Positions 36,398 through 36,603 of a stretch of 41,847 nt of DNA are shown piece after piece; the stretch's first letter is position 1, and every line of letters begins with the position of its first letter. Source of the DNA: an uncultured Roseiflexus sp. (lineage in GTDB: Bacteria; Chloroflexota; Chloroflexia; Chloroflexales; Roseiflexaceae); assembly GCA_937935075.1 (NCBI GenBank), contig CALGYB010000066.1, forward strand, positions 1 through 41,847, read 5' to 3'. Both the position numbers and the translations under genes were made by a program. A model generated the notes under the pieces. That model was not told the DNA's origin, made no database searches, and was given only the letters and a program-made list of their open reading frames with translations.

Positions 36398-36418
36398 GCG
36401 CACGTCCTCGACAGAATC

Positions 36419-36447
36419 AAAAAACCCTCGCGTAAGCGAGGGCTTTT
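36419..36447. terminator. Bidirectional rho-independent terminator
   Basis: Arms CCCTCGC (36425-36431) and GCGAGGG (36436-36442) with loop GTAA. Plus strand: followed by CTTTTT after rplY. Minus strand: followed by six T (36419-36424), ending the small-ORF transcript. Confidence 0.92.
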
Positions 36448-36457
36448 TGTTTTCCCT

Positions 36458-36532
36458 GGGCATCACCACGGGTGAGCTTACCGCGCCACCTCGATGGTGA
36501 TGCCCTTACGCTCATTACTCATGGGCATCACC
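36458..36532 (-). promoter_or_regulatory. Alternative-stem RNA element around the 14-codon ORF
   Basis: On the minus strand GGTGATGCCC occurs at 36523-36532 (a) and 36458-36467 (a'), and its exact complement GGGCATCACC at 36496-36505 (b). Stem a-b traps part of the Shine-Dalgarno sequence and puts the start codon in a 17-nt loop. Stem b-a' frees it, and can extend by one A-T and one G-T pair. The two 10-bp stems exclude each other, as in an attenuator or translational switch. No known riboswitch family is recognised. Confidence 0.6.
36478..36522 (-). CDS. 14-codon small ORF with near-perfect ribosome site
   Basis: ATG at 36522 opens 14 codons (MSNERKGITIEVAR) ending TAA at 36478-36480. AAAGGAGGTGAT at 36527-36538 matches the anti-Shine-Dalgarno end of 16S rRNA over 11 nt (AAGGAGGTGAT), with GGAGG 8 nt from the ATG. 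A strong promoter lies 53 nt upstream and a strong terminator about 35 nt downstream, so the ORF has its own transcript of about 150 nt. No homologue is known to me. It could be a functional micropeptide, a leader peptide whose translation sets the RNA fold, or a relic of a longer gene. Confidence 0.55.
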   Translation of the reverse strand: MSNERKGITIEVAR

Positions 36533-36574
36533 TCCTTTACGCCTGAACGGCAATTTTGAAGGATTGACATGAGC

Positions 36575-36603
36575 AATATACCGAAAATCATGGCGTCTGT
36601 CAA
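36575..36603 (-). promoter_or_regulatory. Near-consensus promoter of the small-ORF transcript
   Basis: Perfect TTGACA (36598-36603), 17-bp spacer and TATATT (36575-36580) on the minus strand. Predicted start near 36568, giving a leader of about 46 nt. Confidence 0.8.

Follow-up and report, generated by a model that had tools for sequence, protein, structure and literature searches.

In leader-peptide attenuators, both translational (ermC) and transcriptional (trp, leu), translation of a short open reading frame (ORF) selects between mutually exclusive stems, one of which masks a Shine-Dalgarno sequence (SD). A metastable stem also masks the SD of the hok mRNA and is later replaced by another, and SR1/SR1P of Bacillus is a dual-function small RNA that additionally encodes a peptide. 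The AapA1 mRNA is reported to fold, as it is being transcribed, into a stem that covers the SD until another stem takes its place (PMC6733600). The odc1 motif (uORF-25-1) of the Alphaproteobacteria has a short ORF (11-aa peptide) with a sequestered ribosome site, precedes a main ORF and has a conserved peptide (PMC8632094). Among candidate RNAs, the Downstream-peptide motif/yfr6 is a conserved RNA beside a short ORF, with conservation suggested to extend to the 5′ UTR only, and Chloroflexi-1 (RF01698) comes from Chloroflexus aggregans (PMC2864571). Here we describe a locus on a contig of an uncultured Roseiflexus sp. (41,847 nt, referred to as the window) that we consider, with barely better than even confidence, to be a stand-alone regulatory RNA gene of the Chloroflexota acting as a two-state switch read by the ribosome.

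The locus occupies positions 36603 to 36419 of the minus strand and reads, 5′ to 3′, promoter, small hairpin, SD (AAAGGAGGTGAT), ATG, 14 codons, TAA and intrinsic terminator. The predicted promoter is of the sigma-70 type (36575–36603) and matches 11 of 12 consensus positions, with TTGACA at 36603–36598, a 17-nt spacer and TATATT at 36580–36575; the 5′ end of the putative transcript was placed from it. Just 5′ of the SD is a leader hairpin, GCC-GTTCA-GGC (36541–36551), which is kept in Chloroflexales (~91% of cells paired among 40 Chloroflexales sequences) and is variable or absent outside the class. The extended SD (36527–36538) is complementary to the 3′ tail of 16S rRNA; the initial annotation had recognized this match and had given its length as 11 nt, whereas it extends over 12. 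The tail sequence, TGGATCACCTCCTTT, occurs in G003, a complete genome from this genus, as well as in seven of eight other relatives, while a slightly longer version of the pattern had no match in the draft assembly from which the window derives. Segment a (GGTGATGCCC, 36523–36532) shares positions with the SD and ends directly before the start codon of the ORF (MSNERKGITIEVAR, 14 codons and TAA stop, 36478–36522), and it can pair with segment b (GGGCATCACC, 36496–36505), which lies within the ORF. The alternative partner of b is segment a′, a second GGTGATGCCC located 3′ of the stop codon (36458–36467), and the hairpin formed by these two spans the stop codon. The terminator (36419–36442) consists of a 7-bp hairpin at 36442–36425 followed by T6 at 36424–36419. 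Each of the minus-strand elements proposed in the initial annotation, from the promoter through the ORF and the three segments to the T6 terminator, lies where it had been placed.

Two further features overlap the locus. The terminator (36425–36442) is symmetric with T-rich tails on both strands, and so may also serve the gene for ribosomal protein L25, which is convergent in the window. Also, a promoter-like sequence (TTGACA-16-AATCAT) is found on the plus strand at 36564–36591, within the leader, and could drive an antisense RNA. The other flank, upstream and on the same strand as the locus, is a gene for a LysM-domain protein, and lexA is nearby.

The predicted RNA of 151 nt has a calculated folding energy of −72.7 kcal/mol (z = −7.8 relative to dinucleotide shuffles). 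When compared with Rfam 15, the window gave no match at the gathering score, including to RF01698, and six homologous loci searched without thresholds gave only sub-threshold matches at the level expected by chance. In the open-access literature we found no description of the element and no RNA family of such an arrangement, and it seems to be undescribed.

Outside the window, identity over the whole unit is 84–88% for further genomes of this genus and for one neighboring genus, and by BLAST its core is present in nearly all Chloroflexales genomes. A covariance model built from 40 Chloroflexales sequences, with the b:a′ stem and the leader hairpin as its structure, identified the element in 136 of 158 Chloroflexia genomes, nearly always as a single copy; when only assemblies of good completeness were counted, the figure was 89 of 93. 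E-values in these searches are rough and draft genomes were used. Members in other classes of Chloroflexota were sparser and scattered; a broader model (R2) gave 85 of 400, and several divergent members outside Chloroflexia that we inspected have the same layout. A few weak model matches outside the class, such as L132, proved false, and a match in viral_contigs, which would have pointed to a phage origin, was dismissed because it lies inside a long ORF. A pattern scan for the SD plus b across 84,980 species genomes returned 110 stretches, of which ~100 were from Chloroflexota and had a short ORF; among the matches listed, those from other phyla lacked the unit and are probably due to chance only. 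As an a:b-like match is built into the scan pattern as a requirement, the scan serves only to gauge organismal spread and not as evidence for pairing. Taken together, these searches indicate an element of the Chloroflexota that spans much of the phylum, usually at one copy per genome. The relatives suggested by the initial annotation, Roseiflexus and Chloroflexus, were correctly chosen, although the true range is much wider, and the promoter, ribosome site and stems, whose loss in close relatives it had named as counting against it, are retained there.

Some individual copies were unusual. The copy in a record labeled Candidatus Gracilibacteria SM1_231_1 (L239) is typical of Chloroflexales, and the label of that record is probably wrong. 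Close to the end of a Thermomicrobiales contig, two copies converge and overlap (L109, 1961–2114, and L191, 5812–5933), possibly either an assembly chimera or a real pair. In Herpetosiphon-like genomes (f3; L055) only a few kb separate the element from the end of a 16S rRNA gene; on contig C1 of genome G042, for example, it is near 5443395 and the 16S end is at 5447186, with a weak 5S-like match nearby.

The signals at either end of the unit are widely shared. A promoter score of at least 9 of 12 was obtained for 117 of 144 homologs, compared with ~8.5% of shuffled upstream regions, and a terminator-like hairpin follows 127 of 144 homologs relative to 14 of 144 shuffled controls. The 144 homologs take in matches from the GTDB pattern scan; more generally our counts for promoters, terminators, codons and neighboring strands include pattern-selected loci, but these features lie outside what the pattern selects. 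The initial annotation had judged such an assembly of signals unlikely by chance, and the identity among relatives and the class-wide occurrence bear this out. Conservation in more than 100 species with compensatory changes refutes a chance origin, to which we give next to no credence.

The alternating stems around a short ORF have the anatomy of a leader-peptide attenuator, raising the question of whether the element covertly attenuates the gene that follows it or serves as its translation-coupled leader. A same-strand ORF does lie within 400 nt downstream in 48 of 122 cases. However, the strand of the next downstream gene is random (same strand 59, opposite strand 63), the nearest downstream gene in the window is the convergent L25 gene, a terminator nearly always follows the element, and both the identity and the strand of the downstream gene largely differ among lineages. 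We consider control of a neighbor to be very unlikely, and because the neighbors vary and their strands are random we regard the element as a gene in its own right. The element also has no paralogs in its own genome and is not a mobile repeat there.

Both stems predicted by the initial annotation are conserved, and b:a′ shows the stronger signal of compensatory change. In the alignment of 40 sequences, 98.8% of a:b cells are paired (0 of 500 shuffles were as high), and pairing falls to 31–61% when the partner is slid by 1–3 columns; in a set of 30 sequences drawn across classes the value is 98.0%. Two-sided changes occur at only 3 of 10 a:b pairs, and the changes in this stem are mostly G-C to G-U or A-U to G-U, which we attribute to a being nearly fixed by the 16S tail, the SD match being the most invariant part of the family. 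The b:a′ stem is paired in 93% of cells in the 40-sequence alignment and 93.1% in the cross-class set, with two-sided compensatory changes at 9 of 11 and 7 of 10 pairs, respectively. Nine rows of the cross-class set (L150, L159, L162, L168, L179, L192, L218, L230, and L238) originate from the pattern scan, which biases that set toward a:b and not toward b:a′. Duplex energies for a with its own b average −21.0 kcal/mol, compared with −12.9 kcal/mol for shuffled b. In a swap test each b fitted its own a′ better than most others, while a:b was not singled out; given how little a varies, the test says nothing about a:b. As kinship among the sequences inflates shuffle tests, the slid controls carry more weight, as do the very divergent classes in which b has been rewritten and still complements its own SD (GGCGTCACCTCC in f65 and CTGCACCACCTC in f33). 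It is feasible that part of the conservation of b could stem from b:a′ alone. In f2 (L029, L036, L043, and L045), and less clearly in f4 (e.g., L020 and L023), a pyrimidine stretch, CCTCCTT or similar, lies directly 3′ of a′; it could possibly pair with the SD as a third way of masking it.

Calculated folds are consistent with an exchange between the stems. In the RNA of the window ending just after b, a is paired at 10 of 10 positions, and adding a′ raises the calculated probability that the SD is unpaired from 0.02 to 0.21. The a:b and b:a′ states are near each other in calculated energy, with a gap of ~1–11 kcal/mol across 22 homologs, and b:a′ is favored in most lineages but not in all: the calculation gives a slight advantage to a:b in certain members of f2, f3, f4, and f20, and the default state may therefore differ among lineages. 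An SD that is covered while the RNA is being made and then released by refolding, as in the hok and AapA1 mRNAs (for AapA1, PMC6733600), would also suit a type I toxin-like mRNA with metastable SD masking. That the peptide by inspection is short, polar and variable and has no hydrophobic span, and that each genome has one fixed chromosomal copy, makes a toxin of this kind highly improbable.

The ORF is nearly always kept, in most members at 12–18 codons, with its start at SD spacing and its stop between b and a′. Within Chloroflexia the distance from the start to b is 17, 20, 23 or 26 nt, indicating insertions in threes. The stop codon is TAG in 72, TAA in 29 and TGA in only 4 of 105 members (related sequences that are not independent), yet TGA is the commonest stop in sampled genes of Roseiflexus (56%) and of the Thermomicrobia-like f13 (59%). 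In two members (L041 and L248) the usual stop has changed from TAG to CAG, giving ORFs of 21 and 24 codons that extend through part of the b:a′ hairpin. An internal SD-like GAGGT is located 5–11 nt 5′ of the stop; since it also pairs in the b:a′ hairpin, we draw no inference from it as to a ribosome-parking signal.

The initial annotation had left the choice between a translational switch and a regulated micropeptide. If the latter were correct, the product would be the peptide of 13–18 aa and the stems would only set its amount. The strong promoter, the extended SD and the retention of ORF and stop nearly everywhere agree with such a peptide, as do the length changes in threes 5′ of b and a loose pattern, MS-S...G[IV][TA].E[VA], within Chloroflexia. 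However, this pattern is lost in other classes (MDVSCKSRAASVRSR, MSTHFGVTSAAA, MSSNKPSAVTSLLKI), the peptides otherwise share little except M-[SD]-x-S, and G-[IV]-[TA] is itself imposed by b. In Ardenticatenia (L150, L159, L162, and L168) b lies in another reading frame and the peptides are unrelated (e.g., MDASTRCLSPWASPEGRR). In addition, serine in the first codons after the start is encoded by AGT in 221 of 253 instances (87%), compared with 6–20% in sampled genes, so that nucleotides are conserved beyond the amino acid; this bias suggests that the RNA, or the process of translating it, is under constraint. The kept ORF, the codon and stop biases and the varying peptides suggest selection on translation and RNA rather than on the peptide. 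Switch architecture, in the form of the two stems in a stand-alone unit, is thus well supported at the sequence level, whereas a regulated micropeptide is the less likely of the two options and, as an explanation of the locus, unlikely overall. Because no conserved peptide is shared among classes, and b is even found in another frame, we favor a regulatory RNA over a peptide gene.

What can be read from the genomes is the layout of the element and how well it is conserved, the two stems, the retained ORF and the lack of a fixed neighbor; transcription, translation, the order of folding and any sensing role we infer from them. In our model of the regulatory RNA, pairing of b with a would hide the SD and start codon (state 1), and pairing of b with a′ would form the hairpin over the stop codon and leave the SD open (state 2). 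State 1 would be possible once b is transcribed and could be replaced by state 2 once a′ is made, and a 30S subunit bound at a would favor state 2. A ribosome at the stop codon, between b and a′, would then open the hairpin and free b to shut the SD behind it, leading us to propose that the RNA responds to the supply of ribosomes or to how fast initiation and termination proceed. The ORF would be translated to move the switch and not for a particular peptide. The output of the RNA might be an action on other RNAs, binding of 30S subunits or a change in its own stability. In its fullest form, with the ribosome as ligand, translation as input and the fold as output, the element would sense unengaged 30S subunits or how rapidly initiation and termination occur and relay this in trans or through RNA stability, with a dispensable ORF sequence, across the phylum; we put this forward tentatively, as a proposal that could well be wrong.

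A simpler role for the SD would be as a decoy or parking RNA, in which a very strong SD holds small subunits and the stems only set the number of open SDs. The 12-nt complementarity to the 16S tail in the most invariant part of the family, the repeat of the SD-like sequence in a′ and a promoter suggestive of high expression would all fit such a role. A pure decoy, however, has no need of a kept ORF with a UAG or UAA stop between b and a′, nor of a b segment inside that ORF, and we think it quite improbable.

That a single-copy element in most genomes of a class lies outside Rfam and is too short to be picked up by gene callers suggests a housekeeping function that has been overlooked. The element also uncouples translation as a signal from the peptide product, in that an ORF is retained even as sequence and frame vary. 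If the switch does act as a sensor, an RNA of ~150 nt would constitute a sensor of ribosome supply that is usable as a reporter.

Neither the window nor the six homologous loci matched RF01698 in Rfam, which sets the element apart from Chloroflexi-1. The likeness to leader-peptide attenuators lies in a short, presumably translated ORF with mutually exclusive stems; in contrast to them, the element controls no downstream gene, its hidden SD is that of the ORF itself, it ends at once in a terminator after a′, and its peptide is unconserved, with no diagnostic codons, conserved arrest peptide or common run of a single amino acid type across classes. It differs from odc1 in being neither upstream of a main ORF nor endowed with a conserved peptide. 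With hok and AapA1 the element might share, going by calculated folds, an SD-masking stem formed at the time of transcription and its later exchange; it has, however, no toxin-like peptide and no known antisense RNA, and is a single fixed chromosomal copy in most genomes of the class. It resembles dual-function small RNAs such as SR1/SR1P in being stand-alone and intergenic, with its own predicted promoter and terminator and a small ORF, but that ORF has only 13–18 codons, encodes an unconserved peptide and has pairing segments inside and around it. Unlike the Downstream-peptide motif/yfr6, the pairing of the element spans the ORF and the 3′ end.
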